A stretch of DNA of 64,000 bases from an uncultured Hyphomicrobiales bacterium (GTDB lineage: Bacteria > Pseudomonadota > Alphaproteobacteria > Rhizobiales > Ancalomicrobiaceae): the NCBI GenBank assembly GCA_903930435.1, contig CAIYYN010000013.1, positions 1 through 64,000 of the forward strand, in the 5' to 3' direction. The position numbers were made by a program, and so were the translations under genes. The notes under the pieces are model-generated. The model was not told the origin of the DNA and did no database searches. It worked only from the letters and a program-made list of their open reading frames with translations. This document shows, one piece after another, positions 2,216 to 54,491 of the stretch. Numbering within the stretch: position 1 is the stretch's first letter; the number at the start of each line of letters is the position of its first letter.

Positions 2216-3049
2216 ATGTTGATCGACATGTCCTACTACGCGGCGGCGCCAATTATTCTTGTCGTTCTGATCGTCCTCTTCGCGTCGGTACGGATCCTGC
2301 GGCAGTACGAGCGGGCCGTCGTCTTCACACTCGGCAAGTTCGAGCGGATCAAAGGGCCCGGACTGGTCCTGCTCTTTCCCTTCATCCAGGAAATGGTGCG
2401 CGTGGATCTGCGTATCCAGGTGATCGAGATCCCGAGCCAGGACGTGATATCGCGCGATAACGTATCGATGAAGGTCGACGCCGTATTGTACTTCAACGTG
2501 GTCGATCCCGAGCGTGCAATCATCGCGGTCCAGAACTATCAGCCTGCGACAAACATGCTGGCGCAGACGACCTTGCGGGCGGTGCTCGGCCAGCACGACC
2601 TTGATGAAATGCTCTCTGATCGAAAGAAGCTTAGCACGGATGTGCAGGGCATTCTCGACACGCAGACCGAGGCCTGGGGCATCAAGGTTAGCAATGTCGA
2701 AATCCGGACGGTCGAACTCGGCGACAACATGGTCCGCGCCATAGCCAAACAGGCCGAGGCCGAACGTGATCGCCGGGCCAAGGTGATCCACGCCGAGGCG
2801 GAATTCCAGGCGTCCCAGACGCTGGTGAACGCGGCGACAATTCTGGGAAGCGTGCCCGCGGCCATGCAATTGCGTTATCTGCAGACGCTGTCCGAGATCG
2901 GCGCGGAGCAGAATTCGACAATCGTCTTCCCGATGCCGATCGATATCATCAAGCCGTTTCTGGATTTGATCCAAAGCCAGGAGGCGCAAATCCATCGCGG
3001 CGGCAATGGCGCGGCCAAACTGCCGCTGGAAGCGCCGCACCTTGTTTGA
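2216..3049 (+). CDS. Slipin / stomatin-like SPFH (band 7) membrane protein
   Basis: A 277-residue protein with one N-terminal membrane segment (about residues 8-26), then an SPFH/band 7 domain ('QYERAVVFTLGKFERIKGPGLVLLFPFIQ', 'VSMKVDAVLYFNVVDPERAI', 'LRAVLGQHDLDEMLSDR', 'WGIKVSNVEIRTVEL') and an Ala/Glu-rich coiled coil (about 180-215). Slipins oligomerise on the inner membrane and organise microdomains; many partner with NfeD proteases, but no nfeD gene is adjacent here. AAGGAGTG lies just before the ATG. It is followed by a small lipoyl-like gene with its own upstream box. Confidence 0.93.
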   Translation: MLIDMSYYAAAPIILVVLIVLFASVRILRQYERAVVFTLGKFERIKGPGLVLLFPFIQEMVRVDLRIQVIEIPSQDVISRDNVSMKVDAVLYFNVVDPERAIIAVQNYQPATNMLAQTTLRAVLGQHDLDEMLSDRKKLSTDVQGILDTQTEAWGIKVSNVEIRTVELGDNMVRAIAKQAEAERDRRAKVIHAEAEFQASQTLVNAATILGSVPAAMQLRYLQTLSEIGAEQNSTIVFPMPIDIIKPFLDLIQSQEAQIHRGGNGAAKLPLEAPHLV

Positions 3050-3919: not shown

Positions 3920-5410
3920 ATGCCACTTCACGAACGCGAAAGCGTCAGAGGTCTGCTTGAGGCGGATATCTACGGCACCCACGCAGCCGATATCTCCGTC
4001 CCGAAATTCAAGCTCGGCCAAGGCGAATTACGAGCGGACGTGGCTCATGCGCTTGTACGGGACGAATTGTTCCTGGATGGCAATGCGCGGCAAAATCTTT
4101 CGACGTTCTGCCAGACGTGGCTCGATACCGAAATTCATGACCTCATGGATCTATCGATCGACAAGAACATGATCGACAAGGACGAATATCCCGCGACCGC
4201 CGAGATCGAAGGCCGTTGCGTGAACATTTTGGCGGATCTCTGGCACTCGCCGGATGCGGCGAACACGATCGGTTGCTCGACGACGGGGTCAAGCGAGGCC
4301 TGCATGCTCGGCGGTCTCGCCCTGAAATGGAAGTGGCGCCTCCGGATGGAGGCCGCCGGGAAGCCGACTGGCAAACCGAACATCGTTACCGGCCCGGTCC
4401 AGGTCTGCTGGCACAAGTTTGCCCGTTACTTCGACGTCGAGCTGCGCGAGATCCCACTGGAAAAGGGCCGGCTCGGCATGACAGCTGAGGAGGTGCTGAA
4501 GCGCGTTGATGAGAACACGATCGGTGTTGTTCCGACGTTCGGCGTCACGTTCACCTGCCAGTATGAGCCGGTGGCCGCAATCGCTGCCGCACTCGACAAG
4601 CTGCAGGCCGAAACCGGGCTCGATATTCCAATCCACGTCGATGCCGCCTCGGGCGGATTTATCGCCCCGTTTATCGAGCCCGATCTCGTCTGGGATTTTC
4701 GCATTCCGCGCGTGAAGTCGATCAACGCATCCGGCCACAAATATGGACTTGCGCCTCTTGGCGTGGGTTGGGTTGTGTGGCGCGACAAGGCGGAGTTGCC
4801 CGAAGAGTTGATTTTCAACGTCAATTACCTCGGCGGCAACATGCCGACCTTTGCGCTGAACTTCTCGCGGCCGGCCGGGCAGATCATCGCGCAATATTAC
4901 CTGTTCCTGCGTCTCGGCCACGACGGCTACCGGCGCATCCAGCAGAACGGCTACGATACCGCGCAGCAGATCGGCCGCGATGTCTGTAAGCTTGGGCCGT
5001 TCGAATTATTCTTTGACGGCAATAGCAAAACGGGTCTGCCGGCGATCTCCTTCGTGATCAAAGACGGTGCGGAGCCGGGATATTCGCTGTTCGATTTGTC
5101 GGACAGGCTTCGGGTCCGCGGCTGGCAGGTTGCAGCCTACACGATGCCGCCGAATATCCAGGACGTCGTGGTGATGCGCGTTCTCGTCCGGCATGGATTC
5201 AGCCGCGACATGGGCGACATGCTGATCACCGATATGAAGCGTGGCATCGATTACCTTGTGGCGCATAAGCCGTCGGTCCCGCAGAGCCCGGCCGAAGGGA
5301 CGACATTCACCCATGACGGCGCGGCCGCCAAGTCTTTGCCCGCCGTGCCCGTTGTGAAAGCGGTGCGTGCTGCAGACGGCTCGCACGTGAAGACGAAGCA
5401 AGTCGCTTGA
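3920..5410 (+). CDS. gadB: Glutamate decarboxylase (PLP-dependent)
   Basis: A 496-residue cytoplasmic enzyme that converts glutamate to GABA and CO2 and consumes a proton. The PLP lysine is K274 in 'SGHKYG', the cofactor-binding aspartate is D241 in 'HVDAASGG', and the substrate/phosphate loop 'STTGSSEA' is at about 120-127. Length and alignment follow E. coli GadB closely. 'TTFTHD' places H465 where E. coli has the pH-gating His465, but here 31 extra residues follow, rich in Ala, Val and Lys. GAGGG lies 9 bases before the ATG. First gene of the gadB-gadC-glsA-aspD-aspT cluster, all on one strand with gaps of 60-125 bases. Confidence 0.97.
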
Positions 5411-5532: not shown

Positions 5533-7026
5533 ATGGCTCTGGCAAAAAAAGCCGTGGTATCCACGTTCAGCATGGCAATGATGACGGGCGCCGCCGTCGT
5601 CAGTCTGCGCGGCCTGCCGATGATGGCGAAGGAGCAGCTGACGCTCTTCGTCTATGTCGCCTTCGCCACGTTCATCTTCCTGATCCCGGCGGCGCTCGTC
5701 TCCGCCGAATTGGGTGGTGCATTCGGTGAAAAAGGCGGTGGCGTCTACACCTGGGTTAAGGAAGCCTTCGGCGCGCGCTGGGGCTTTGTCGCCATCTGGT
5801 TGCAATGGATCCAGAACGTGGTCTGGTACCCGACCGTCCTCGCATTCTCAGCGGCAGCAATCGCTTATGTGGTCGGAAAGCCCGAGCTTGCCAACAACGG
5901 GCCCTATGTCGGCGTCTTCTGCATCGCCTGCTATTGGGCGGCAACGTGGATTTCGCTACGCGGTGTCGATGCGATCGCGAAAGTCACAAGTTGGGCCTTC
6001 CTTGTCGGTACGGTATTGCCTGGCGTCATCATCATGGGTCTCGCGGCGATCTGGATCTACCAGGGCAACCCGATTGCCATGCTGCATCCGGTCGCGACAG
6101 ATTCCGTGTCGGTCATGTCGATGACCGGCGGCCATGCGCATCCGCGTTATTTCCCCAATATTACTGGCATGGGTGACATCGCCTTTCTCGCCGGCATCAT
6201 CCTGCTCTTTGCCGGCGTCGAAGTGCACGCCGTGCATGCCAATGAGATGACGGAACCAAAGCGGCAGTTTCCGCTTGCCATCCTGATTGCGTCCGTCGTC
6301 ATCATTCTCCTGTTCACGCTCGGATCATTCGCCGTCGCTACCGTGCTGCCGAACCAGGACATCAATCTTCAGGAAGGCTTGATGAAGGCCTTTCAGCAGA
6401 TCTTCGACAAGTTCGGCATGGGTTGGGCGACGCCGATCGTCTGCCTGCTGCTCGCGTTTGGCGGTGTCGGCGGTGTCATGTCCTGGATCAGCGGGCCGAG
6501 CCGTGGTCTCCTCTGGACTGCGCAGGAGGGTGAAATTCCGCCCTTCCTGGCAAAGACCAACAAGCAGGGTGTCCAGATCAGCATCCTGATCGTCCAGGGT
6601 GTGATCGTGACCGCCCTCTCGGTTACCTACTTCGTCATGAAAGATGTCAGCGTCGCGTTCTTCCTGCTCAGCGCCATGACGATCTCGCTGTACCTGATCA
6701 TGTATATGCTCATGTACGCCGCAGCCATTCGGTTGCGCTATTCGCAGCCCGACCTGAGGCGCAGCTACCGCGTCCCCGGGGGAACCGCAGGCATGTGGCT
6801 CATTGCCGGCGTAGGATTTGCTGGCGTGGTTTTTTCCTTCGTCGTCAGCTTCTTCCCACCATCGCAGCTGCCGGTTGGAAGTCCAACCCTCTATGTCGGT
6901 CTTGTCGTCGCTGGAACGGTGATTTTCACGGGCCTGCCCCTGCTGATCACCTTCTTTAAGCAGGCATCATGGCGTGCGGTGCAGCAGCCCCCCATGGTCA
7001 CTCCTGTTCTTGCAAAGGCGTCGTAA
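5533..7026 (+). CDS. gadC: Glutamate:GABA antiporter, APC superfamily (GadC type)
   Basis: A 497-residue inner-membrane transporter with about twelve hydrophobic helices and the APC-superfamily N-terminal pattern 'FSMAMMTGAAVVSLRGLPMMAKEQLTLFVY'. It resembles GadC/YjeM glutamate:GABA antiporters and follows gadB by 122 bases, so glutamate uptake coupled to GABA export is the likely role. AGGAGG sits 6-10 bases before the ATG. The tail after the last helix is only about 23 residues, shorter than the roughly 40-residue C-plug that closes E. coli GadC at neutral pH. Gating may therefore differ. Confidence 0.92.
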   Translation: MALAKKAVVSTFSMAMMTGAAVVSLRGLPMMAKEQLTLFVYVAFATFIFLIPAALVSAELGGAFGEKGGGVYTWVKEAFGARWGFVAIWLQWIQNVVWYPTVLAFSAAAIAYVVGKPELANNGPYVGVFCIACYWAATWISLRGVDAIAKVTSWAFLVGTVLPGVIIMGLAAIWIYQGNPIAMLHPVATDSVSVMSMTGGHAHPRYFPNITGMGDIAFLAGIILLFAGVEVHAVHANEMTEPKRQFPLAILIASVVIILLFTLGSFAVATVLPNQDINLQEGLMKAFQQIFDKFGMGWATPIVCLLLAFGGVGGVMSWISGPSRGLLWTAQEGEIPPFLAKTNKQGVQISILIVQGVIVTALSVTYFVMKDVSVAFFLLSAMTISLYLIMYMLMYAAAIRLRYSQPDLRRSYRVPGGTAGMWLIAGVGFAGVVFSFVVSFFPPSQLPVGSPTLYVGLVVAGTVIFTGLPLLITFFKQASWRAVQQPPMVTPVLAKAS

Positions 7027-7031
7027 AGCCG

Positions 7032-7086
7032 ACGGCCGGACTGTCCTGAGCGCGAAGCGCAAGGCAAGCGTTAGGACGGCCGGTCG
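7032..7086 (+). repeat. Imperfect inverted repeat between gadC and glsA
   Basis: GACGGCCGG...GTCCTGA on the left and TTAGGACGGCCGGTC on the right can pair imperfectly around a GCGCGAAGCGC core. There is no T-run, so it is unlikely to be a strong intrinsic terminator. It may modulate the gadC/glsA transcript or mRNA stability. Confidence 0.4.
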
Positions 7087-7109
7087 CTAGGACCGCAAGG
7101 AGGAACACC

Positions 7110-8189
7110 ATGGAAAAGTATCCGACCCGTAGCAAACCAGACAGCGCGACGTTTGCCATCCCGCGACGCCGCCTACTTGGCTTTGGGACTGTCGGTCTTT
7201 TGGCAGCCGCTATGCCATCACTCGTCGGGATCGGCACCGCGATAGCTAAACCCACGCCCGCAGACGAGCGTCGATTGAAGCAACTCGTCGACGAGGCCCA
7301 TTCTCGTTTCGCCACGGTCGGTGACGGAAAGAATGCCGATTACATCCCCTATCTGGCCTCGGTGCCGTCGCACCTCTTCGGCATCGCCATATCGACCCCG
7401 GACGGTAAGGTCATCGAAGCAGGCGACACGACCTATGCCTTTGCCATCGAGTCGGTCGCTAAAGTCTTTACGCTGGCGCTCGTCATGCGTGAATCCGGGC
7501 CGGATATCGTCAAGCAAAAGCTTGGAACGAATGCGACCGGGCTGCCCTTCAACTCGGTCATTGCGCTGGAACTGCATCAGGACGATCCGCTCAGCCCGCT
7601 CGTGAACGCCGGAGCGATGGCGACCGTAAGTTTGGTGAATGCGGCCAATGCTGAAGATCATTGGAGGAAGATCAGCGACAACATGAACGGATTTGCCGAC
7701 GCCGACCTGCCGCTCAACCAAGCTGTCTACAAATCCGAATCCGATACGAACCAGCACAATCGCGCCATCGCATACCTGCTTCAGACTGGAAACCACATGT
7801 ACAGCGATGCGATGGAGGCGTGCGACATCTATACCCGCGAGTGCTCCATCGGCATCACGACACGCGATCTTGCTGTCATGGCCGGGACTCTCGCCAACGG
7901 CGGGGTCAATCCGATCTCGGGAAAACGCCTCCTGGATAAGGCTTACGTTCCCAAAATTCTCGCCGAGATGGCGGTCGAAGGGCTCTACGACACGAGCGGC
8001 ACTTGGCAATATGACGTGGGGTTGCCCGCGAAAAGTGGCGTCGGCGGCGGTATCATGGCGGTCTCGCCGGGCAATTGGTCGATTGCAGCCTTTTCGCCGC
8101 CGCTCGACGCGGCTGGCAACAGCGTTCGTGCGCAGCTCGCCATTGCGTGGATCGCCGATCAACTGAAGGCCAACATCTACGCCGAGTAA
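7110..8189 (+). CDS. glsA: Glutaminase (serine-dependent, GlsA family) with Tat-like signal peptide
   Basis: A 359-residue glutaminase that hydrolyses glutamine to glutamate and ammonia. The catalytic S115-x-x-K118 is in 'AIESVAKVF'. N166 in 'LVNAGAM', 'CSIGITTRDLAVMAGTLANGGVNP' and 'GLPAKSGVGGGI' are further family signatures. Unusually, the first 46 residues look like a twin-arginine signal: 'IPRRRLLGFG' (17-26), a hydrophobic stretch and a likely cut after 'AIA'. The enzyme may therefore be periplasmic, whereas the E. coli acid-resistance glutaminase is cytosolic. It would supply glutamate to GadC/GadB and release ammonia. AAGGAGGA precedes the ATG. Sits between gadC and aspD. Confidence 0.93.
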   Translation: MEKYPTRSKPDSATFAIPRRRLLGFGTVGLLAAAMPSLVGIGTAIAKPTPADERRLKQLVDEAHSRFATVGDGKNADYIPYLASVPSHLFGIAISTPDGKVIEAGDTTYAFAIESVAKVFTLALVMRESGPDIVKQKLGTNATGLPFNSVIALELHQDDPLSPLVNAGAMATVSLVNAANAEDHWRKISDNMNGFADADLPLNQAVYKSESDTNQHNRAIAYLLQTGNHMYSDAMEACDIYTRECSIGITTRDLAVMAGTLANGGVNPISGKRLLDKAYVPKILAEMAVEGLYDTSGTWQYDVGLPAKSGVGGGIMAVSPGNWSIAAFSPPLDAAGNSVRAQLAIAWIADQLKANIYAE

Positions 8190-8261
8190 TCGCACACCTC
8201 AGCAAGAAACGTTCAGCGCCTAACACATTGATCGATCAGCCGATTGCAAGAGGAAACAGAT

Positions 8262-9878
8262 GTGAAAGCCGTTGACTATGAGCGTTTCGCAAAACTAAGT
8301 CCGTTCGAGCTGAAGGATGCGCTGATCGATCTCGCTTCCAGCAAGAGCGACCGGATGATGCTCAACGCGGGCCGAGGGAACCCGAATTTCCTGGCAACGC
8401 TGCCGCGCCACGCGTTTTTTCTGCTTGGAACATTCGCACTTGAGGAGTCCGAACGCTCGTTCTCCTATATGCCCGAAGGCGTTGGTGGTCTCCCGCTTCA
8501 TGACGGAATGGAGGCCCGATTCGGGGCATTTGTCAGCGCCAACGCTGCACGCCCGGGCGCGACCTTCCTCGAAGCTGTCTTGTCCTACGTTCGCGATCGA
8601 TTGGGGTTGTCGGCAGGCGGCTTCCTGCACGAGATTGTCTCAGCGATACTCGGCTGCGAGTACCCAACGCCTCCGCGGATACTGCCGTTTGTCTCCACTA
8701 TCTCCTGCCATTATCTCGCTCGCGAACTCTTCCGCGATCAGTTGCCGGCGAGCGGCATTGATCTGTTCGCCGTCGAGGGCGGCACAGCCGGCATAACGTA
8801 CGTCTTCAATACATTGCGCGAAAACCGGCTTCTTGTGCCAGGTGACAAGATCGCGATCGGCATGCCCATTTTCACGCCCTATATCGAAATTCCCCAGCTC
8901 GGCGATTATCGACTGGTCGAAGTAAACATCGAGGCGGATGGAGCGCACGGCTGGCAATATCCGGACGAAGAGATCGATAAGCTGTTGGATCCTTCCATCA
9001 AGGCCTTTTTCGTCGTCAACCCAAGCAATCCGCCTTCGGTGCAGATCGACGAAAGGTCGATGCAAAGAATCGCGGGGCTCGTCCGGACGAAGCGGCCAGA
9101 TCTTGTGATCATCTCCGACGAGGTTTACGGCACCTTCGCCGACAACTTCCTGTCATTGTTCGCTGTTTGCCCTCACAATACGATCCTCGTCTATTCCTTT
9201 TCCAAATACTTTGGTGCGACGGGCTGGCGTCTTGGATTGATCGTGACACATGCGGACACCGTGCTTGATCGCGCGCTCGCGAAGCTGGCTGAAGTCGATC
9301 AAAAGGCGCTCGAGGGGCGATATTGTACACTCGCGGCGGAACCTCGCGATATCAAGTTCATCGATCGCCTCGTTGCGGATAGCCGTACCGTGTCGCTCAA
9401 CCACACCGCAGGTCTCTCCACACCCCAGCAGGCGCAGATCGCGTTGTTTTCCCTGTTCGCCCTTATGGATGAAGCGGACGATTATCAAAATGCGATCAAG
9501 AGGCTGATCCGACGCCGTCAAACGACCCTGTACAGTGAGCTCGGTCTTTCCACCGCACGAGACTCGAATGGCACGTACTATTATGCCCTGCTCGATCTCG
9601 AGCAGATCGCCACCGAAATGCACGGTATAGAATTTGCGCAGTGGATGCTGGCTAAAAAGGAACCGCTGGAAATGCTATTCCGGCTGGCGGACGAAGGTGG
9701 CGTCGTACTCCTGCCAGGCAAAGGCTTTGGGACTTTGCACCCGTCCGCGCGGGCCTCGTTGGCAAACCTGAATGACTACCAATACGCCAATATTGGGCGG
9801 GTGATCCACACGCTCTCTAACGAATATCATGCGGAATTCGTGCGCGAGACGGCGAAGCCGACACTTGTGACCGCATAG
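8262..9878 (+). CDS. aspD: Aspartate 4-decarboxylase / aspartate aminotransferase (PLP)
   Basis: A 538-residue fold-type I PLP enzyme that converts aspartate to alanine and CO2 and consumes a cytoplasmic proton. The PLP lysine is K315 in 'SFSKYFGATGWRLG'. 'NPSNPPS', 'ISDEVYGTF' and 'NAGRGNPNF' are the expected substrate and cofactor motifs. Length agrees with the AspD family (about 530), longer than ordinary aminotransferases. The GTG at 8262 is preferred over a TTG 18 bases upstream because AGAGGA lies 8-13 bases before the GTG. It is followed after 63 bases by aspT, the usual partner. Confidence 0.95.
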   Translation: MKAVDYERFAKLSPFELKDALIDLASSKSDRMMLNAGRGNPNFLATLPRHAFFLLGTFALEESERSFSYMPEGVGGLPLHDGMEARFGAFVSANAARPGATFLEAVLSYVRDRLGLSAGGFLHEIVSAILGCEYPTPPRILPFVSTISCHYLARELFRDQLPASGIDLFAVEGGTAGITYVFNTLRENRLLVPGDKIAIGMPIFTPYIEIPQLGDYRLVEVNIEADGAHGWQYPDEEIDKLLDPSIKAFFVVNPSNPPSVQIDERSMQRIAGLVRTKRPDLVIISDEVYGTFADNFLSLFAVCPHNTILVYSFSKYFGATGWRLGLIVTHADTVLDRALAKLAEVDQKALEGRYCTLAAEPRDIKFIDRLVADSRTVSLNHTAGLSTPQQAQIALFSLFALMDEADDYQNAIKRLIRRRQTTLYSELGLSTARDSNGTYYYALLDLEQIATEMHGIEFAQWMLAKKEPLEMLFRLADEGGVVLLPGKGFGTLHPSARASLANLNDYQYANIGRVIHTLSNEYHAEFVRETAKPTLVTA

Positions 9879-9941: not shown

Positions 9942-11645
9942 ATGTTGAACACCGTACTTCTCGCCCGGCCCGAGCTGGCGCTCTTTGCCGCTCTGGTGCT
10001 CGGATATGGCCTCGGCGCGATTAAAATCGGTCCCTTCAAGCTCGGGGGGGTGGCCGGGACATTGATCGCAGCCTTGGTCATCGGACAGACCGGTGTCCAC
10101 GTCGATGCGGACCTTCAACGGTTCATGTTTACGCTATTTGTCTACGCGCTCGGCTTCTCAGTCGCTCCACAGTTCTTTGCCAGCATCGACAAGACGACAT
10201 GGACGTGGGGTCTTCTAGTAGTTATCGAGATTGTGGCAATAGTGGCCGTGGCGTTTATCGCGACATGGTGCCTCAAGCTGGACGTCGGCACGGCGAGTGG
10301 GCTGCTTGCCGGTGCGGCGACTGAATCTGCGATGGTTGGTACCGCGAGCGAGGCGATCGGCAAGCTTGGTATCGCAGCGGCGGAAATAAAGACACAGCAG
10401 GCGAACGTGGCGACTGCGTACGCGCTTGCCTATTGTTTCAGTCTGATCACCATCGTCTTGTTCTCCAGTCAGATCGCGCCAAAGCTGCTCGGTATAGATC
10501 TTCGTGAGGAGGCCCGGCGCACGATGGCGAAGCTCGGCGGCGTCGATGCAAACCTCGACGCTGATCAAGCCGATGCTTTCCCGCCGCTCGTAAGCCGAGG
10601 ATTTCTCGTCGCGGCTGCGGCCGGACAAAGCATCGCTGCTATCGAAAGTGCGCTCGCCGGTAATGTCACCGTCGAGGGGCTTCGTAGGGATAACGCCGAT
10701 ATCAAGATCACCGGCGACTGCCTGCTTAGAATGGGCGACGAACTCGCCGTCGCCGGGCTCCGTTCGGCACTCGTGGATGCCGCGAAAATCATCGGCCCTG
10801 AAGCAGGCGATCCCTCGGCCGTGAAATTTATCATCGAGACTCGCGATATCGTTCTGACGCGCTGGCCCGAACATCGAGCACCCGCCACATCGATCATCCA
10901 GTTCCTCCGCGCAGCGACGGTGAATGGCGTCTACCTGTCGGCCGTCACGCGGGACGACCGCAAGCTGCCGGTGCTGGACCGGGCTATGGTCCGTCGCGGG
11001 GATGTCGTGGAATTATTTGGTAAGCCAGAGGATGTTGCGCGCGCAGCCCATCTGCTTGGAAACGCAGAAGTGCCCGACGTTCTGACAGACTTTGTTTATC
11101 TTGGCGGCGGATTGATTGTCGGTATCTTGATCGGGCTACTCACGATTCCGGTGGCCGGCGTGCCGCTTTCCCTTGGGAGTGCCGGAGCGCTGGTTTCGGG
11201 GCTTGGATTTGGCTGGTTGCGCGCGCGGCATCCGACCTTCGGCGCCTTTCCCCCCGCCGCGACGCGCGTTCTGAAGGATCTTGGTCTAGCCATTTTCATC
11301 GCATCGATTGGTCTGAGCGCGGCGCCTAGCGTTCTCGCACTTTTAGGTGCGCGTGGCTGGCAGTTGCCGATTGCGGCGGTTTGTATTTCCTTGGTACCGA
11401 CGCTCATCTCCCTCTACGTCGGTCGCTACCTTTTGCACATGGAGCCTGCAATCCTCTGCGGAGCGCTCGCTGGGCAGCAGGCTAGCACGCCGGCGATCAA
11501 TGCGACTGAGGCTGTGGCAGGCAACCCGGTGCCGATCATCGGCTACACCGTAACTTATGCACTCGCCAATATCCTTTTGCCCTTGTTGGGACCAATTTTC
11601 GTCGTCGGATTTGCGGCGGTTAATGGGCTAGGTTCTCCCCACTGA
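9942..11645 (+). CDS. aspT: Aspartate:alanine exchanger (AAEx family)
   Basis: A 567-residue inner-membrane antiporter. Two hydrophobic halves (about residues 1-190 and 385-567) flank a central cytoplasmic region carrying RCK_C/TrkA_C-type domains (about 205-370), the layout of the AspT/YidE family. Electrogenic aspartate-in/alanine-out exchange together with AspD generates proton-motive force and alkalinises the cytoplasm. 'GLLAGAATESAMVGTASEA' and 'AGQQASTPAIN' are the paired family motifs in the two halves. GGAG lies 11 bases before the ATG. Last gene of the acid-resistance cluster. Confidence 0.94.
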   Translation: MLNTVLLARPELALFAALVLGYGLGAIKIGPFKLGGVAGTLIAALVIGQTGVHVDADLQRFMFTLFVYALGFSVAPQFFASIDKTTWTWGLLVVIEIVAIVAVAFIATWCLKLDVGTASGLLAGAATESAMVGTASEAIGKLGIAAAEIKTQQANVATAYALAYCFSLITIVLFSSQIAPKLLGIDLREEARRTMAKLGGVDANLDADQADAFPPLVSRGFLVAAAAGQSIAAIESALAGNVTVEGLRRDNADIKITGDCLLRMGDELAVAGLRSALVDAAKIIGPEAGDPSAVKFIIETRDIVLTRWPEHRAPATSIIQFLRAATVNGVYLSAVTRDDRKLPVLDRAMVRRGDVVELFGKPEDVARAAHLLGNAEVPDVLTDFVYLGGGLIVGILIGLLTIPVAGVPLSLGSAGALVSGLGFGWLRARHPTFGAFPPAATRVLKDLGLAIFIASIGLSAAPSVLALLGARGWQLPIAAVCISLVPTLISLYVGRYLLHMEPAILCGALAGQQASTPAINATEAVAGNPVPIIGYTVTYALANILLPLLGPIFVVGFAAVNGLGSPH

Positions 11646-12551: not shown

Positions 12552-14729
12552 ATGACTGAACTTGATACACACGACTTAGCGCCAATAGCCCGACTATCAA
12601 TTGACGATAGCGTTGGCATCTATACTTGTCCCATTCACCCACAAATACGCCAGGTTGGGTCAGGGAATTGCCCCATATGCGGAATGATGCTGGAGCTGGT
12701 CAAAGCGACTGCAGAGGCGGGCGAAAACCACGAACTGGAAGACATGACGCGGCGCTTCTGGATTGGACTTGTTCTCTCCTTGCCCGTATTCATCCTCGAA
12801 ATGGGTAGCCATATCCCCTCGCTTGGCATGCACAATTTAGTTCCGCCTCAAATCTCGACATGGATTCAATTCGCTTTGTCGACGCCGGTCGTCCTGTGGG
12901 CAGGATTTCCGTTCTTCGAACGCGCCTGGAGCTCGGTCGTCCACCGCAGCCTAAATATGTTCAGCCTGATCGCTCTTGGAACCGGGGCCGCATACATCTA
13001 CAGCCTATTTGCGACATTCGCGCCCGGCATGTTCCCCGCCGGTTTTCACGATATGGGCGGCACGGTCGCTGTTTATTTCGAGGCGGCAGCAGTGATTACG
13101 GTCCTGGTGTTATTGGGCCAGGTACTCGAACTCCGCGCCCGCGAGCAGACCGGCGGTGCGATCCGCGCCTTGCTGAACTTGGCTCCCAAAAAGGCGCACC
13201 GCTTGAATGCTGATGGCGAGGACGAGGAGGTCGCCCTTGAGTTAGTTCGGGTCGGCGATCGTCTCCGGGTTCGACCAGGCGACGGCGTGCCGGTCGATGG
13301 CGAAGTGCTTGAGGGCAGGGGAGCCGTGGACGAGTCTATGGTCACAGGCGAGTCGATGCCCGCGTCGAAGAAATCCGGTGACAAGCTTATCGGTGGCACA
13401 GTGAACGGTACAGGCTCACTCATCATGCGTGCCGATAAGGTCGGCGCTGACACCATGCTTGCGCGCATCGTCACCATGGTCAGCGAGGCGCAACGAAGCC
13501 AAGCGCCGATCCAGGCGCTAGCGGACAAGGTGTCCGGCTATTTCGTTCCCGCGGTGCTCGGCGTGGCGGCCATAGCTTTCGTTGCGTGGGCGGTATTCGG
13601 TCCCGCCCCCCCGCTTGCCTATGCGCTGATCGCGGCTGTCTCTGTCCTTATCATCGCCTGTCCCTGCGCGCTGGGGCTCGCCACCCCAATGTCGATCGGG
13701 GTGGCGATCGGCAAAGGCGCGGGCGCCGGTGTCCTAATCAAGTCGGCTGAAGCCCTTGAGCGTATGGAGAAGGTCAATACTCTGGTCGTCGACAAGACCG
13801 GGACACTGACCGAAGGCAAGCCGAGGGTGACGGCCATTATTCCCGCGGCCGGATTCTCCGAGGCCGAGATTTTGCCTTTGGCGGCAAGCCTTGAGCGGTC
13901 AAGCGAACATCCGCTTGCGGTCGCCATCGTCACGGCCGCGAAAGATCGCGGCATGGCAACCAAAGAGCCGACCGAGTTCGCCTCTGTCACCGGCAAGGGC
14001 GTCACCGGCAAGATCGATGGCAGATCCGTGGCGCTCGGCAATGCCAAGCTGATGGCTGATATCGGCGTGAAATTCGATGATTTCGACAGACAAGCCGACG
14101 AGTTGCGCGGCGATGGCGCGACCGCCCTATTTCTGGCAATCGACCAAAAGCCAGCCGGGATCATAGCCATTGCCGATCCGATTAAGGCGACCACGCAAGC
14201 GGCACTCGATACGCTTCGGAAGGACAGCATACGGATCGTGATGCTGACTGGGGACAACAAGACGACGGCAGAGGCGGTTGCGCGCAAGCTTGGGATCACC
14301 GAAATCGAAGCCGACGTTTTGCCGCAGGATAAGAACCGCATCGTCAAGAAGCTGACGTCCGAGGGTCGCATCGTTGCAATGGCCGGCGACGGCGTGAACG
14401 ATGCTCCTGCTCTGGCCGAGGCCTCTGTCGGCATCGCGATGGGAACAGGAACCGAAGTCGCAATTCAGAGCGCCGGAATCACCCTGGTGAAAGGCGATCT
14501 TGCCGGCATCGCGCGGGCGATGGTCCTAAGCCGCGCGACAATGCGCAATATTCGAGAAAATCTGATCTTTGCGTTCACCTACAATGCGATTGGGATCCCT
14601 ATCGCCGCAGGCATACTTTACCCGTCCTTCGGCATCCTTCTCAGTCCGATCATCGGCGCCCTAGCGATGTCGCTTAGCTCCGTTTCCGTGATCGCGAACG
14701 CCCTGCGGCTGCGCACGCTTAAGCTCTGA
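12552..14729 (+). CDS. copA: Copper-exporting P1B-type ATPase
   Basis: A 725-residue heavy-metal pump. The N-terminus has a Cys-rich heavy-metal-binding (HMBD) segment (C26 in 'YTCPIHP', C40 and C43 in 'GNCPICGMM') instead of the usual HMA domain. The actuator TGES is at 265-268. The transmembrane metal site is C370-P371-C372, the phosphorylated aspartate is D414 in 'DKTGT', and the P1B 'SEHPLA' and hinge '[10 protein letters not shown]' motifs follow. CPC plus HMBD points to Cu(I)/Ag(I) export. No copper regulator or chaperone gene is adjacent; an upstream GTAG-TTCCGA box suggests control by the shared regulator. Confidence 0.95.
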
Positions 14730-21050: not shown

Positions 21051-21704
21051 TCAATCGACGGAGATATTGTTGAAGACCTGAGTGGTGCCCGCCGCAGACC
21101 AGACTGTTGTCGATGCCAAGTCCCAATCATGCAACGAGGGAACCGATCCCGTCAGCGTGACCCTGCCGTTCTCATCCGCTCGCACGTGGACGCTTTCGTC
21201 GTCGAAGAACCACGAACGCCCAATGGCATGCATGATGTCGTCGCTGAGGTTGGCTGTGTTGACGCGCGGCTTCAGTGTGATGTGATTGGTGACGCCGATC
21301 ACGCCATGCAATCCGTGCACGTCCTGTTCTGCGGCCTGCTGCTGATAGTGCCAACCGACCTGACCGGTCAATGTGACCCAGCCTTTTTCAACCTTTGCCA
21401 TGATCGAATCGCGCGGCAGGCTGACATCCCATGACAGTTGATTTGCGGCTACGGTGGCGATTTCGTCATCGGTTCGGCTAAGACCGGTGGGCACACGGAC
21501 CTCGATCTCCTCGGCGACGGCCCGCACGCCCTTGACGCGCCGGACAGCTTTTTCAGCTGCGAATTTCTGGATATAAGTCTCCACATGTCCTGAAAGTGTT
21601 ACGACGCCGGCCTTGGCCGTCACACCGATATGACCGGCCGTCACACTTGGCTCCCAGGTGAGTTCAGCCAAAACGAGTTTTTGCAGTTCGCTATCCGTGG
21701 ACAT
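21051..21704 (-). CDS. Triple BON-domain protein (OsmY-like)
   Basis: A 217-residue protein with three BON domains (about 4-70, 78-145 and 150-217), shown by repeated 'G.v.L.G.v......a...v..v.gv..v.n.i' patterns. It starts at 'MSTDSELQKLVLAEL'. Unlike OsmY it has no signal peptide, so it may be cytoplasmic. Closely similar to the protein encoded at 54492. BON proteins bind phospholipid or outer-membrane components in characterised cases. It is the last gene of an apparent cbpM-PRC-BON minus-strand group with gaps of 60 and 130 bases. Confidence 0.88.
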   Translation of the reverse strand: MSTDSELQKLVLAELTWEPSVTAGHIGVTAKAGVVTLSGHVETYIQKFAAEKAVRRVKGVRAVAEEIEVRVPTGLSRTDDEIATVAANQLSWDVSLPRDSIMAKVEKGWVTLTGQVGWHYQQQAAEQDVHGLHGVIGVTNHITLKPRVNTANLSDDIMHAIGRSWFFDDESVHVRADENGRVTLTGSVPSLHDWDLASTTVWSAAGTTQVFNNISVD

Positions 21705-21833
21705 TTGGGTCTCCGAAGGTTTCGAGATTAGTTTAAGAATATTGGTTTCTGGTGGAGTGGAGCCTCCGCAAAAAGGAAGCACCCTTAAGCAATGGTTAGA
21801 TCCTAGCATTCTCTGTTCAGCGTAAGGCGGTTT

Positions 21834-25861: not shown

Positions 25862-27535
25862 ATGACAGTCAGACAGTCGGATTTCACGCCCATCATCGAT
25901 CTCGTCCGCGAGAAGGGCATCGGCCCGGTCCGCGAACAGCGGCCGGCCTATGTCGATCTCCTGCCGCCGTGCAACAGCGCTTGCCCAGCCGGTGAAAATA
26001 TCCAGGCCTGGCTGGATCTGGCCCAGGCCGGAAAATACCAGCGGGCCTGGGAGACGATCCTAGCGGACAATCCATTCCCCGCCGTCCACGGCCGTGTCTG
26101 CTATCATCCATGTGAGACAGGTTGTAACCGGACGCAGGTCGATAGCGCCGTCAGTATTCATGCGGTCGAGCGCTTTCTCGGCGATCTCGCCACCAAAAAC
26201 GGTTGGACGGTGCCTGCTCCGGCGCCTTCGACCGGCAAACGCGTGCTCGTCGTCGGCGGCGGTCCGAGCGGTTTGTCGGCGGCCTATCATCTGGCGCGAA
26301 AGGGCCATGCGGTCGAGATCCGCGATGCCGGCCCACTGCCCGGCGGCATGCTGCATTTCGGCATCCCCGCATACCGATTGCCGCGCGACGACCTGATGGC
26401 GGAAATCGCCCGGATCGAGGCGATGGGCGTCAAAATCACGCTCAACCACAAGGTCACCGACGTGCTGGCCGAACAGGCGGAGGGTGGCTTCGACGCCGTG
26501 TTCATTGCCATCGGGACCCAAATCGGCAAGCGCATCAATATTCCCGCCCGCGATGCCGCTCACGTTTTTACCGCGATCAACCTGCTACGCGACGTGGATA
26601 GCGGAGCGGCCCCGAAACTTGGCCGCCGCGTTGTCGTCTACGGCGCTGGCAATACGGCCATGGACGCCGCCCGAACGGCACGGCGGCTTGGCGCGGAAGA
26701 GGCGCTGATCGTGTTCTTCATGGATCGCGACCACATGGAGGCGCACGACTTCGAGGCGGAAGAAGCGCTCTCCGAGGGCATCAAAATCAAGTGGTTGAGC
26801 AGCATCCACGATATCGACGCGACCCAAATCACCGTCGAACGCATGGTGATGGATGCGGACGGCAAGCCCCAGCCGACCGGCGAATACGAAACATTGAAGG
26901 CGGATTCAGTGGTGCTTGCGCTGGGTCAGCGCGCCGACAGCGGCTTCCTTAAAGGCATTCCCGGCATCGTCTTCAAGGCGGATGACACCGTCATCGTCGA
27001 TAGTGGCATGATGACCGGGCACGCGGGGATTTTCGCCGGCGGCGACATGGTCCCCGGCGATCGGACTGTGACGTCTGCCGTCGGTCACGGCAAAAAGGCC
27101 GCCCGCCACATCGACCGCTGGCTTGGCGGGGAACCAGCCATCATTCCGGCGCCCAAACATTCGCTGGCAACCTTCGATCTGCTGCATCTGCCGATCTATA
27201 CCGACGCCCCCGTCTCCATCCAGTCGGAACTGTCGCTGGAGGATCGGCTCGGGCATGGCTTCGTCGAGACGACAGCCGGCCTGTCAGAGGCCGAGGCGCT
27301 GTTTGAGGCAAAGCGCTGTTTGTCCTGCGGCAACTGCTTCGAATGCGACCAGTGCTTCGCGGCGTGCCCGGAGCAGGCGATCGACAAGCTCGGGCCGGGC
27401 AAGCGCTACGCCTACAACTTCGATCTCTGCACCGGCTGTGCGGTCTGTTTCGAGCAGTGCCCCTGCCACGCCATCGAAATGGTCCCGGAGCCCGTCGCCG
27501 TCTCGGCAACCTTTCGATTGGAGCATCGGCTATGA
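25862..27535 (+). CDS. GltD-like NAD(P)H oxidoreductase with extra C-terminal 2[4Fe-4S] ferredoxin domain
   Basis: A 557-residue protein. The N-terminal Cys-rich Fer4_20 domain has 'CNSACPAGENIQAW' and 'CYHPCETGC'. The FAD site 'GGGPSGLSAAYHLA' is near residue 130, the NAD(P)H site 'GAGNTAMDAARTARRLG' near 260, and two [4Fe-4S] motifs lie at about 488-535 ('CLSCGNCFECDQCFAACP', 'CTGCAVCFEQCPC'). It resembles the glutamate synthase small-subunit family. Its TGA overlaps the nifJ start, so it most likely moves electrons between NAD(P)H and the pyruvate oxidoreductase or its ferredoxin. ATG 25862 is chosen over 25826 because AGGA precedes it. No glutamate synthase large subunit is near. Confidence 0.88.
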   Translation: MTVRQSDFTPIIDLVREKGIGPVREQRPAYVDLLPPCNSACPAGENIQAWLDLAQAGKYQRAWETILADNPFPAVHGRVCYHPCETGCNRTQVDSAVSIHAVERFLGDLATKNGWTVPAPAPSTGKRVLVVGGGPSGLSAAYHLARKGHAVEIRDAGPLPGGMLHFGIPAYRLPRDDLMAEIARIEAMGVKITLNHKVTDVLAEQAEGGFDAVFIAIGTQIGKRINIPARDAAHVFTAINLLRDVDSGAAPKLGRRVVVYGAGNTAMDAARTARRLGAEEALIVFFMDRDHMEAHDFEAEEALSEGIKIKWLSSIHDIDATQITVERMVMDADGKPQPTGEYETLKADSVVLALGQRADSGFLKGIPGIVFKADDTVIVDSGMMTGHAGIFAGGDMVPGDRTVTSAVGHGKKAARHIDRWLGGEPAIIPAPKHSLATFDLLHLPIYTDAPVSIQSELSLEDRLGHGFVETTAGLSEAEALFEAKRCLSCGNCFECDQCFAACPEQAIDKLGPGKRYAYNFDLCTGCAVCFEQCPCHAIEMVPEPVAVSATFRLEHRL

Positions 27536-30500
27536 ACGTCGCAACCCCCGTTTTAGCCAAAGTCGCCGCGACCGGGACGAGTCCCGCAGCAGGCGTCACG
27601 CCAGCCACGGATCGCCGCGATACCGGTGCTGCGGAGAGGGCGACGATGGATGGCAATACTGCCGTCGCCTATGTCGCCTATCGGGTCAATGAGGTCTGCG
27701 CGATCTACCCGATCACGCCGTCGTCGACGATGGCAGAGCTGGCGGATGAATGGGCCTCGCAGGGGCTCAAGAATATCTGGGGCGGTGTCCCGATCGTGCA
27801 AGAAATGCAGAGCGAGGGCGGCGCTGCGGGCGCGGTGCATGGTGCCCTCCAGTCGGGCGCGCTGACGACGACCTTCACGTCGTCGCAGGGGCTGCTGCTG
27901 ATGCTGCCGAACATGTTCAAGATCGCCGGGGAACTGACATCGACGGTCTTCAATGTGGCGGCACGGTCCGTCGCCACGCAGGCGCTGTCGATTTTCGGCG
28001 ACCATTCCGACGTGATGGCGATCCGCTCGACCGGCTTTGCCTTGCTTGCGTCGGCGTCCGTCCAGGAAGCGCACGACATGGCGCTGATCGCGCAAGCCGC
28101 GACGCTGGAATCCCGTGTCCCCTTCATGCATTTCTTCGACGGATTTCGCACGTCGCACGAACTCAACACACTCTCGATCATTCCCGACGCCTCGATCCGG
28201 GCGATGATCCGCGACGATCTCGTCCGCGCGCATCGGGCCAGAGCGCTGAACCCGGAACACCCGGTCATGCGCGGCACGGCGCAAAATCCGGATACGTTCT
28301 TCCAGGCACGCGAAGCCAGCAATCTCTTCTATCTCGCAACGCCGGCCATCGTGGAAAAGGCCATGGCCGATTTCGCGGGACTGACGGGACGGACCTACAA
28401 GTTGTTCGACTACAGCGGCGCCGTCGATGCCGATCGCGTCATCGTCATCATGGGGTCGGCCGCCGAGACGGCTCTGGAAACGGCGGTCTTCCTCAACGCC
28501 GCTGATCCGCATACCAAGCTCGGCGTTCTGCATGTTCACCTGTATAGGCCGTTCTCCGTCGAGCATTTTCTTGCAGCGCTGCCGGTAACGACCAAAGCGA
28601 TTGCGGTCCTCGACCGGACCAAAGAGCCGGGCAGCACAGGCGAGCCGCTTTACCTCGATTGCCTCGCCGCGATGATGCAGGGCTCTGCGTCCGGCGCGGT
28701 GGCGTCAGTCCCGAGGGTGGTCGGCGGGCGCTATGGTCTGTCGTCGAAGGATTTCACGCCGGCAATGGCCAAGGCGGTCTTCGACGAACTGTCAAAGCCA
28801 AAACCGCTGAACAGCTTTACGGTCGGCATCAACGATGATGTCACCCATCTGAGCCTGTCGTTCGATCCGACGTTTACAATCGAGGCGGCCGATGTCGTTC
28901 GGGCCGTCTTCTATGGCCTCGGATCTGACGGAACAGTCGGCGGCAACAAGGGCAGCGTTAAGATCCTCGCCGAAAACGGCGACCGCTATGCCCAGGGCTA
29001 TTTCGTCTACGACTCGCACAAATCAGGGGCGCAAACGCTCTCGCATCTGCGCTTCGGGCCGAACCCGATCCATGCGCCCTATCTGATCGCGGCGGCGAGC
29101 TTCGTCGCCTGCCATCAATTCGGCTTTCTTGAGAAGGTTGACGTCCTGTCTCTTGCCGCGCCGGGCGCCACCTTTTTGCTGAATTGCCCTTATGAGCCCG
29201 AGGACACCTGGAACCATCTGCCGCGCTCGGTACAGCAGGAGATCATCGACAAGCATCTCCAGCTTTACGTCATCGACGCTTCCAAGGTCGCACGCGAAAC
29301 CGGGCTCGGCGGTCGCGTCAACACGGTCCTGCAGACGTGCTTCTTTGCACTCTCGGGCGTCCTGCCGCGCGACGAGGCGATCGGCCGCATCAAGCACATG
29401 ATCGAGAAGACCTACGGCAAGAAGGGCGACAGCGTCGTCAAGGAAAACTTCGCGGCCGTCGACCAGACGCTGGCGAAGCTGCGCCAGGTCTCCATCCCGA
29501 TCTCGGCCACCAGCAGCTTCGAGCGCCCGCCGATCGTGTCTCCCGCCGCGCCAGCCTTTGTGCAACGTCTCACAGCTGAGATCATGGCCGGCCATGGCGA
29601 AGCGCTTCCTGTCAGTGCGATGCCGATCGATGGAACCTTCCCCACGGGCACGTCGGCCTGGGAAAAGCGCAACATCGCCGACGAAGTGCCGATCTGGGAG
29701 ACGGACCTCTGCATCCAGTGCGGTCAGTGCGCGATCGTCTGCCCGCACGCCGTCATCCGCGCCAAATTCTATGATGACGACAAGCTGCACGATGCGGCGT
29801 TGCCGGCGCCTGCGTCGTTCAAATCGGCACCGGTCAACGCACGCGGCTATCCGGAGGCCCGCTTCACGCTTCAGTTTTACATGGAGGATTGCACGGGTTG
29901 CGGTATCTGCGTCGAGGTCTGTCCTTCGCACAGCCCGCGCGCGCCCAACACCAAGGCGATCAACATGGTGCCCAAGGCCCCGGTGCTGGAGGCCGAGAAA
30001 GCCAATATTGCCTTTTTCGAGACCTTGCCGGTCAACGATCGGTCCCGCGTCGACTTTGCCAATGTGCGGGGCATCCAGTTCCTGGAGCCATTGTTCCAGT
30101 TCTCCGGCGCCTGCGCCGGCTGCGGCGAGACGCCATACCTCAAGCTTCTCTCACAGCTATTCGGCGACCGCGCGCAGATCGCCAACGCCACCGGCTGTTC
30201 GTCGATCTACGGCGGCAATCTGCCTGTGACGCCCTGGTCCAAAAACGCCGATGGTCGAGGCCCGGCCTGGTCGAACTCGCTGTTTGAGGACAATGCCGAA
30301 TTCGGTCTTGGCTTCCGTCTTGCCGCGGACATGCATGTGGCGATGGCCGAGCGACTGCTGCGGGAATTGAGCCCGCAGATCGGCAGCGAGTTGGTCGAGG
30401 CCATCCTGTCGGCGCCGCAGATCCGCGAATCCGAGATCCTGATGCAGCGCGGCCATGTGGCCGAGCTGAAACGCCGGCTGACCACGCTCGGCGATCTGCC

Positions 30501-31236
30501 GGTGGCGCTCGATCTTCTGTCCGTCATCGATCACCTCGTCCGCCGCTCGATCTGGCTCGTGGGTGGCGACGGCTGGGCCTATGACATCGGCTATGGCGGC
30601 CTCGATCATGTGCTGGCCAGCGGGCGCGACGTGAACGTCCTCGTGCTCGATACGGAAGTCTATTCCAACACGGGCGGTCAGGCCTCGAAGGCGACCCCGC
30701 TCGGCGCTGTCGCCAAATTCGCGGCGGCCGGCAAACGGACGGCCCGCAAGGACCTCGGTCTCCAGGCAATCGCCTATGGCAACGTCTATGTCGCTCAGGT
30801 GGCGATGGGGGCCAACCCGCAGCAGACGCTGCTTGCCTTCCGCGAGGCAGAGGCCTGGCCCGGGCCATCACTGATCCTCGCCTACAGCCATTGTATCGCG
30901 CACGGCTTCGACCTCCGCTTCGGCATGAAGCAGCAGGATCTGGCAACCGCGTCAGGCTATTGGCCGCTGTTCCGCTTCAATCCGGCGATGGCGACGGCGG
31001 GCGAGGCGCCGTTCCAACTCGACAGTCCGCGACCGACGATCCCGCTGAAGGATTACGCCTACAATGAGCTTCGGTATCGCAGCCTTGCCAGCACTAGGCC
31101 GAAAGACGCCGAGGACCTGCTGACCATGGCGCAGGTCGCGGTTCGGGAGAAATACGCCCAGTACGAGGCGCTGAGCCAGCGCGACGGCAGCCGGTTCCAC
31201 CCGGACGCCCGCACTTCAGCGACCGAAAAGGTTTGA
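27532..31236 (+). CDS. nifJ: Pyruvate:ferredoxin (flavodoxin) oxidoreductase, single-chain
   Basis: A 1234-residue homodimeric-type PFOR: pyruvate + CoA gives acetyl-CoA + CO2 + reduced ferredoxin/flavodoxin. The N-terminal pyruvate-binding domain contains 'AVAYRVNEVCAIYPITPSS'-type sequence ('VAYRVNEVCAIYPITPSST'). Two [4Fe-4S] motifs lie near 726-800 ('CIQCGQCAIVCPH', 'CTGCGICVEVCPSHSP'), a third cluster is indicated by 'CAGCGET' near 860, and the thiamine-diphosphate site 'GDGWAYDIGYGGLDHVL' is near 1012. The ATG overlaps the upstream stop (ATGA). The first ~38 residues are an unusual Ala/Thr-rich extension. Followed after 3 bases by the DHOD-like gene. Confidence 0.96.
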   Translation: MNVATPVLAKVAATGTSPAAGVTPATDRRDTGAAERATMDGNTAVAYVAYRVNEVCAIYPITPSSTMAELADEWASQGLKNIWGGVPIVQEMQSEGGAAGAVHGALQSGALTTTFTSSQGLLLMLPNMFKIAGELTSTVFNVAARSVATQALSIFGDHSDVMAIRSTGFALLASASVQEAHDMALIAQAATLESRVPFMHFFDGFRTSHELNTLSIIPDASIRAMIRDDLVRAHRARALNPEHPVMRGTAQNPDTFFQAREASNLFYLATPAIVEKAMADFAGLTGRTYKLFDYSGAVDADRVIVIMGSAAETALETAVFLNAADPHTKLGVLHVHLYRPFSVEHFLAALPVTTKAIAVLDRTKEPGSTGEPLYLDCLAAMMQGSASGAVASVPRVVGGRYGLSSKDFTPAMAKAVFDELSKPKPLNSFTVGINDDVTHLSLSFDPTFTIEAADVVRAVFYGLGSDGTVGGNKGSVKILAENGDRYAQGYFVYDSHKSGAQTLSHLRFGPNPIHAPYLIAAASFVACHQFGFLEKVDVLSLAAPGATFLLNCPYEPEDTWNHLPRSVQQEIIDKHLQLYVIDASKVARETGLGGRVNTVLQTCFFALSGVLPRDEAIGRIKHMIEKTYGKKGDSVVKENFAAVDQTLAKLRQVSIPISATSSFERPPIVSPAAPAFVQRLTAEIMAGHGEALPVSAMPIDGTFPTGTSAWEKRNIADEVPIWETDLCIQCGQCAIVCPHAVIRAKFYDDDKLHDAALPAPASFKSAPVNARGYPEARFTLQFYMEDCTGCGICVEVCPSHSPRAPNTKAINMVPKAPVLEAEKANIAFFETLPVNDRSRVDFANVRGIQFLEPLFQFSGACAGCGETPYLKLLSQLFGDRAQIANATGCSSIYGGNLPVTPWSKNADGRGPAWSNSLFEDNAEFGLGFRLAADMHVAMAERLLRELSPQIGSELVEAILSAPQIRESEILMQRGHVAELKRRLTTLGDLPVALDLLSVIDHLVRRSIWLVGGDGWAYDIGYGGLDHVLASGRDVNVLVLDTEVYSNTGGQASKATPLGAVAKFAAAGKRTARKDLGLQAIAYGNVYVAQVAMGANPQQTLLAFREAEAWPGPSLILAYSHCIAHGFDLRFGMKQQDLATASGYWPLFRFNPAMATAGEAPFQLDSPRPTIPLKDYAYNELRYRSLASTRPKDAEDLLTMAQVAVREKYAQYEALSQRDGSRFHPDARTSATEKV

Positions 31237-31239
31237 GCC

Positions 31240-32259: not shown

Positions 32260-32277
32260 GCCGACCGGGTCAGACAG

Positions 32278-54087: not shown

Positions 54088-54491
54088 GTGGTTTTGTTGC
54101 TTGGGATCTGGGCAGAATAACAGATGGGGAGCTGGGATTTTTACGCGCCAGGTTCCAACTCACCTGCGCGCAAGCTCCAATTGTTTGGTGACCGACGAGG
54201 ATGCCATTTGTCCCCCTATGGTATGGTCAGAGACAAGGGCTGATTTCTATTCCGGCCGATAACCACAAACCGATCCGTCCGACAGTAATCGAAACTTGGG
54301 TGTTTTCCGACGCTATCGTTCAGGTGCACGCTGGATAAATTCGTTCTGGAGATCGAGGCGTCGGCATCTGGGATCCGCGCACTTGATCCAGTCATCGGAC
54401 AAAATTGGAAAGCTGCAAAACTCTGGTTTGTTTAGCCGTGCTTGCCGATCTTCCGATGTCCCAACATCATTCCCAGAATGAGGAGACAGAA
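54088..54491. other. Intergenic region upstream of second BON gene
   Basis: About 400 bases with no recognisable gene; a 61-codon frame was not called. It contains the box at 54300-54318. Confidence 0.55.
54300..54318 (+). promoter_or_regulatory. GTGT-TTCCGA box upstream of second BON gene
   Basis: GTGTTTTCCGACGCTATCG, 174 bases before the ATG at 54492. The right half matches the MFS-PFOR box (GCTATCG). Confidence 0.5.

Follow-up and report, generated by a model that had tools for sequence, protein, structure and literature searches.

A YbaS-type glutaminase with a Tat-like signal peptide beside gadB and gadC: a candidate exported variant of glutamine-based acid resistance

Does a glutaminase of an acid-resistance operon ever work outside the inner membrane? 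The activity of YbaS/GlsA is described as intracellular in the part of PMC6250119 consulted here. We analysed a stretch of 64,000 nucleotides from an uncultured Hyphomicrobiales bacterium (the window), in which a YbaS-type glsA gene follows gadB and gadC and begins with an apparent export signal (Table 1). In the reading that we prefer, and that we consider rather probable, this acid-type glutaminase carries a Tat signal peptide, is exported and hydrolyses periplasmic glutamine to feed the GadC-like antiporter and GadB, which would make the system a two-compartment variant of AR2_Q. Among the matches listed from titles and abstracts of the open-licence PMC literature, none concerned a gad-operon GlsA with a leader.

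Table 1. Features of the gad/asp gene block and of the glutaminase leader in the window
Feature	Coordinates	Strand	Evidence
gadB, glutamate decarboxylase	3920..5410	+	TIGR01788 634 bits (cut-off 380)
gadC-like amino acid antiporter	5533..7026	+	TIGR03813 490 bits (cut-off 650); NF053662 489 bits (cut-off 640)
Shine-Dalgarno AAGGAGG	7097..7103	+	6/6 AGGAGG matches; 6 nt 5′ of ATG 7110
glsA ORF, YbaS-type glutaminase precursor, 359 aa	7110..8189	+	ATG start
Tat-like signal peptide, 46 residues, predicted cleavage after A-I-A	7110..7247	+	sequence rule
Twin-arginine motif RRRLLG, residues 19-24	7164..7181	+	sequence
Mature glutaminase, YbaS type	7248..8189	+	NF009020 473 bits (curated cut-off 395)
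Glutaminase catalytic domain	7326-8180	+	Pfam PF04960, residues 73-357
aspD, aspartate 4-decarboxylase	8256..9878	+	NF006755 762 bits (cut-off 321); TIGR03801 738 bits (cut-off 435)
aspT, aspartate-alanine antiporter	9942..11645	+	TIGR03802 594 bits (cut-off 547)

The enzyme behind the leader is complete. The Pfam match covers the full-length domain (E 9.5e-100), and 171 of 306 residues aligned with E. coli YbaS are identical. This identity extends to all eight positions that we take to form the YbaS active site (Ser66, Lys69, Asn117, Glu161, Asn168, Tyr192, Tyr244 and Val262). The YbaS structure 1u60 covers the enzyme part. Residue 3 of YbaS aligns with residue 52 of the window protein, so the leader is an addition to a complete enzyme.

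The leader region has a single stop-free forward frame, which is the frame of the leader. With a codon-usage score of +3.8, it is also the only positive frame of the six, the other five scoring -2.8 to -15.7. A scan of the sequence between the upstream in-frame stop, which ends at 7049, and the ATG at 7110 found no other in-frame start codon. One property counts against the leader, namely its GC3 of 0.59, which is lower than that of the mature part (0.73).

The leader consists of a polar n-region, the twin-arginine motif, a hydrophobic stretch (residues 22-45, mean Kyte-Doolittle 1.77) and A-I-A at residues 44-46, followed by K; it lacks cysteine. We used a Tat rule that is our own criterion and other than SignalP, requiring an RR motif, an h-region and A-x-A at the N-terminus. 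The rule was passed by 108 of 20,000 composition-matched shuffles of residues 2-50, by 28 of 3169 ORFs in the sampled loci (glsA loci included) and by two of the 162 window ORFs of at least 100 aa, one of which is glsA itself. The genome encodes TatC (231.9 bits, contig C17), and RR is also kept in the leaders of five related loci (L003, L006, L114, L124 and L125). Export by Tat is a well-supported prediction from the sequence, and a periplasmic location is likely. The preliminary description had proposed a glutaminase with a 46-residue leader composed of RRRLLG, a hydrophobic stretch and A-I-A; the perfect AGGAGG, the sole positive frame and the complete enzyme that follows confirm it.

The leader could nevertheless be unused or inefficient, with an internal start or retention leaving a cytoplasmic glutaminase, as in E. 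coli. There is an in-frame ATG at residue 35, and 12 of 15 rows in the enzyme's own clade are leaderless. However, this ATG has a Shine-Dalgarno match of 3/6, compared with the perfect one at the far start, and the RR is retained in the diverged sister L003. We therefore give little credence to an unused leader. The ATG and a TTG at residue 31 (also 3/6) both lie within the h-region, and a TTG at residue 56 (4/6) lies within the enzyme N-terminus, so the alternative starts are weak or inside the enzyme. The preliminary description had set against export the pattern of homologues starting after residue 46 from a conserved internal start. The leaderless GlsA proteins of the GadC loci do fit this objection, yet no good start occurs at that point in the window, and L003 keeps its RR leader.

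Alternatively, the N-terminus might be an uncleaved anchor that tethers the enzyme to the periplasmic face of the membrane. A hydrophobic stretch of about 24 residues would suit an anchor, and tethering may occur in the family, because the leaders of L007, L008 and L014 are lipobox-like. The window leader, by contrast, has the A-I-A/K cleavage site and no cysteine, and we regard an anchor as very improbable.

The genes gadB-gadC-glsA-aspD-aspT are separated by intergenic gaps of 63 to 122 nt. The first proposal, a Tat-like leader in front of an acid-type glutaminase that neighbours gadB and gadC, is supported. GadB exceeds its family cut-off; the GadC-like protein falls below both GadC cut-offs, so glutamate is only its putative substrate, which counts against the preferred reading. 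Its closest plasmid match is a Caballeronia GadC (57% identical), with which it groups in a GadC tree (support 99/98, long branches flagged). Both lie outside the main GadC group of 27 rows (93/98), some of which represent one gene twice. The GadC proteins of the leaderless loci L052, L091 and L095 likewise lie outside, so the window GadC does not form a clean separate subtype, and a subtype that carries only glutamate is only a guess. The Caballeronia locus has gadB and gadC, but the 18.6 kb examined gave no match to GlsA. No record in the plasmid collection covered 80% of the gadB-to-aspT block.

If the leader functions, the glutaminase would fold in the cytoplasm, and Tat would export the precursor, a step that the sequence supports, so that the enzyme would act in the periplasm. 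Glutamine would there yield glutamate and ammonia, and the ammonia would bind a proton on the outer side of the inner membrane. The GadC-like antiporter would import the glutamate in exchange for GABA, and GadB, in making GABA from glutamate, would consume a second proton inside. Judging by their families, AspD and AspT may run a parallel aspartate/alanine cycle. In this scheme, glutamine would be hydrolysed before transport and not after it. Were export real, ammonia would remove protons outside the inner membrane; an acid-active glutaminase would not draw on the glutamine pool of the cytoplasm, and glutamate would be all that the antiporter has to carry. Another contig of the genome encodes a second glutaminase, which is leaderless, so a cytoplasmic glutaminase would remain despite export; this counts for the reading. 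On the other hand, E. coli GadC transports glutamine itself, and the known AR2_Q scheme therefore needs no export, which counts against it. The role in acid resistance and the flux of the system are plausible proposals.

To place the enzyme among its relatives, we use counts of genomes with a YbaS-type GlsA above the cut-off, in samples that overlap: 20 of 397 in the order, 3 of 385 in the class, 11 of 398 in the phylum, 3 of 60 in one alphaproteobacterial family and 3 of 321 in another class. The window protein is the only one of the 20 matches in the order that has a leader. Seven others are leaderless and lie in gadB-gadC-glsA loci, and 12 of the 20 have a short STGxLP-type N-terminal extension that contains no hydrophobic stretch. 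Loci L097-L109 of this order form, with L120 (Roseomonas), a separate leaderless clade in which the STGxLP extension is conserved; no gad genes were found near its members in the flanks examined. PF04960 is present in 4 of 15 genomes of the family, the window's included, and is absent from both further genomes of the genus.

A tree built from 92 enzyme domains, with the leader excluded, pairs the window with L003 (support 99/97) in a clade of 15 rows (100/96). This YbaS/gad clade contains E. coli YbaS (L128) and 11 further leaderless rows, all 11 of whose loci hold GadB and GadC; leaders occur in the window, L003 and L006. Leader presence requires five changes on the tree, and the starred branches force at least four changes. 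The L003 enzyme is 65% identical to that of the window, and its leader has diverged but keeps SRRHLL. No gad genes were found near L003 or L006 in the DNA examined, which counts against the acid-resistance reading. By eye, the ORFs around L003 look like putative cobalamin genes, and those around L006 like putative tyrosine recombinases. The content of acidic and basic residues was uninformative (3 leader-bearing against 12 leaderless rows of the clade).

Leaders are common outside this clade. Dropping four outgroup rows (L001 and L056-L058) from the 92 leaves 88 loci, of which 39 have leaders and 49 do not; the set is non-random, since a pattern scan that started from the window protein supplied its 53 named loci. 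Flanks extended up to about 8 kb, several contigs being shorter. According to leader types assigned by eye from the protein starts, six of the 39 are Tat-like (the window, L003, L006, L114, L124 and L125) and the remainder are Sec-like or lipobox-like; L012, with RR and a lipobox-like cysteine, was scored as not Tat.

Leader-bearing relatives tend to adjoin porins and AspT-type antiporters. A porin-family gene is directly adjacent to glsA in 20 of 39 leader loci and in none of 49 leaderless loci (Fisher 2e-9, ancestry ignored). An HMM built from seven DcaP porins, all from leader loci, found a match in 24 of the 39 loci with a leader. Among 53 leaderless rows it matched two, L052 and L092, in which a related porin lies upstream of gadB. 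The origin of the HMM and these two rows both count against the preferred reading. In whole genomes, the Pfam DcaP model exceeded its cut-off in 6 of 10 with leaders and 0 of 22 without (Fisher 2e-4, ancestry ignored). The gene lies within 0.6 kb of glsA in five of these six and 2.6 kb away in one, and leaderless genome G180 has one match below the cut-off. The leader-bearing enzymes are also poor in cysteine (rank test p 4e-13, ancestry ignored). Shared ancestry inflates such tests, because the starred branches provide only four independent pairs. On these pairs, neither the porin association (1.3 with, 0.6 against) nor that of low cysteine (3.0 with, 0 against) is significant.

We scanned 20 neighbours of leader-bearing glsA genes with Pfam. 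DcaP exceeded its cut-off in L007, L010, L013, L019, L022, L113 and L115, and fell below it in L024. Other matches were an OprB porin (L012), Na/sulphate symporters of the DASS type (L009 and L011), DcuA/B (L030), a Na/H exchanger (L007), TauE (L115), an amidohydrolase (L049) and an S66 peptidase (L051), while neighbours in L011, L020, L038 and L126 had no Pfam family. The DASS-type proteins and DcuA/B import anions or dicarboxylates, and their position beside leader-bearing glsA, like that of a symporter in L119, counts for the preferred reading. Several of these neighbours do not fit an uptake module, which counts against one. A gene that stands between those of an outer-membrane porin and an inner-membrane importer suits a periplasmic enzyme, and this setting is the best indirect evidence that the leaders of the class work.

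A DcaP-like porin adjoins a leader-bearing glutaminase in L007, L008, L010, L013, L014, L017-L019, L022-L024, L026, L030, L032, L038, L113-L115, L124 and L125. These pairs span Pseudomonadota and Bacteroidota and look like a module for the uptake of glutamine or glutamate. In L012, an apparent fusion of glutaminase and porin was rejected: the long ORF is in a different frame, and the porin match lies downstream of glsA. Proteins of 441-462 aa that end in RLIGGYKF or RLIGGITF stand beside leader-bearing glsA at L053:8066-9451, L055:5945-7324, L020:5445-6785 and L126:9125-10447; they are perhaps another family of outer-membrane barrels, and those of L020 and L126 had no Pfam match. On a Salmonella Macclesfield plasmid (L119:1271-12415, NZ_CP022118.1), the neighbours of a leader-bearing glsA are a gene annotated as a dicarboxylate/amino acid symporter and genes of the methylaspartate pathway, which degrades glutamate. 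Here, glutamine is perhaps converted to glutamate outside, then imported and degraded.

The porins raise the question of whether the window enzyme is exported for nutrition. Periplasmic glutamine would then supply glutamate for uptake, and the gad and asp genes would conserve energy at moderate pH through decarboxylation and antiport. The leader-bearing relatives are indeed found more often with porins (the 24 loci above) than with GadB (5 of 39), and the Salmonella plasmid offers a setting of this kind. However, the YbaS/gad clade includes the window gene, which directly follows gadC, and the Pfam DcaP model found no porin in the window genome. We consider a nutritional role rather unlikely. 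The missing DcaP match also counts against the preferred reading of an exported enzyme for acid resistance.

The antiporters near glsA differ between the two groups, where near means a tblastn match of more than 90 bits with the window protein anywhere in the locus; GadB was counted in the same way. GadC occurs in 26 of the 49 loci without a leader, and among the 39 leader loci only the window has it (Fisher 8e-8, ancestry ignored). The claim that acid-resistance glutaminases are otherwise cytoplasmic agrees with this distribution, 26 of the 27 sampled GadC loci being leaderless, and with the intracellular activity cited above. The same 26 loci count against a pairing of exported GlsA with GadC. 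AspT-type antiporters, by contrast, occur in nine of the 39 loci that have a leader and in none of the 49 that do not (Fisher 4e-4, ancestry ignored). Eight of the nine pass TIGR03802: the window protein, L005 (636), L007 (638), L008 (639), L014 (648), L018 (653), L019 (661) and L110 (628), while L055 (425) fails.

Given that AspT-type antiporters in our sample occur only with leader-bearing GlsA, and that aspD and aspT directly follow glsA in the window, AspT, and not so much GadC, might be the partner of the exported enzyme, which could for instance hydrolyse asparagine as well. Yet in L005, L007, L008 and L014 the AspT-type gene stands beside a GadB above the TIGR01788 cut-off, and no AspD was found in the stretch examined, which points to glutamate; moreover, YbaS is described as a glutaminase. 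Service mainly to AspT therefore seems quite unlikely. The stretches with AspT, GadB and leader-bearing GlsA are L005:3694-6834, L007:2441-5537, L008:3771-6839 and L014:3171-6337, and their "aspartate-alanine antiporters" are candidate glutamate/GABA antiporters.

From these partnerships we infer that exported GlsA pairs with carriers of the acid form, and cytoplasmic GlsA with a GadC that takes glutamine. Tentatively, and with more doubt than confidence, we suggest that glutamine acid resistance has two compartment designs. One would combine cytoplasmic GlsA with a glutamine-carrying GadC. The other would combine exported GlsA with acid-only antiporters (the AspT family, and perhaps the window GadC), often with a porin that admits glutamine. 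The window, with its Tat leader, GadC and AspT, would be a mixed form. If the rule is true, AspT-family proteins beside GadB are predicted to be glutamate/GABA antiporters. The real substrates of GadC and AspT relatives could, if export is real, be tested from gene order.

We now note further properties of the window. A long GC-rich hairpin (7034-7085) occupies the gap between gadC and glsA (z -2.0, with 7 of 200 shuffles as stable) and could set the transcript ratio. An intrinsic terminator in this gap was rejected, since the scan gave no site on the + strand and the hairpin has no T run. An SPFH gene (2216-3049) lies upstream of the gad/asp block and a copper-type P-ATPase (12552-14729) downstream. 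In E. coli (L128), glsA/ybaS likewise lies between copA and the SPFH gene qmcA, a resemblance that is possibly chance. A pyruvate:ferredoxin oxidoreductase (27343-31236), a 339-aa ORF (31240-32259) and an acetate kinase (32278-33462, - strand) form a possible low-oxygen energy block (27343-33462). Two proteins with three BON stretches each (21051-21809, - strand, and 54405-55142, + strand) share the stretch MSTDSELQKL or MSADSELQKL.

Four known systems bear comparison with this locus. The periplasmic glutaminase-asparaginases of the AspQ/AnsB type also hydrolyse amides in the periplasm, but we take them to belong to a protein superfamily other than PF04960. A Sec leader is predicted for AspQ in the part of PMC6679007 consulted. 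The leader-bearing glutaminases beside DcaP-type porins (among them L010, L013, L019, L113-L115, L124 and L125) share with the window a signal peptide and the same enzyme. Their leaders are Tat-like in L114, L124 and L125 and otherwise mostly Sec-like or lipobox-like. They differ from the window in belonging to other clades of the tree, and a porin replaces the gad genes in the loci listed. Aspartate decarboxylation and antiport by AspD and AspT is represented by two window genes above their NCBIfam cut-offs, but the pair here follows gadBC and a leader-bearing glutaminase.

The closest comparison is with AR2_Q itself, known as ybaS-gadC in E. coli and as gadBC-glsA in Brucella microti, where hdeA follows the operon (PMC5695133); the portions of that source covered here do not name the compartment of the enzyme. 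The window resembles AR2_Q in its gadB-gadC-glsA order, with gadB two genes upstream of glsA, and in having a YbaS-type enzyme of the same clade. It differs in the Tat-like leader, in a GadC-like protein that falls short of its families, and in aspD-aspT, which replace hdeA after glsA. A glutaminase that acts inside the cell is a feature of AR2_Q that the window, judging from its leader, would not share. If export is real, the family name "glutaminase A" can mask a change of compartment. The gadBC-glsA arrangement, B. microti included, is called group IIa in the consulted part of PMC6250119, and the window would count as a variant of this group with an exported enzyme.
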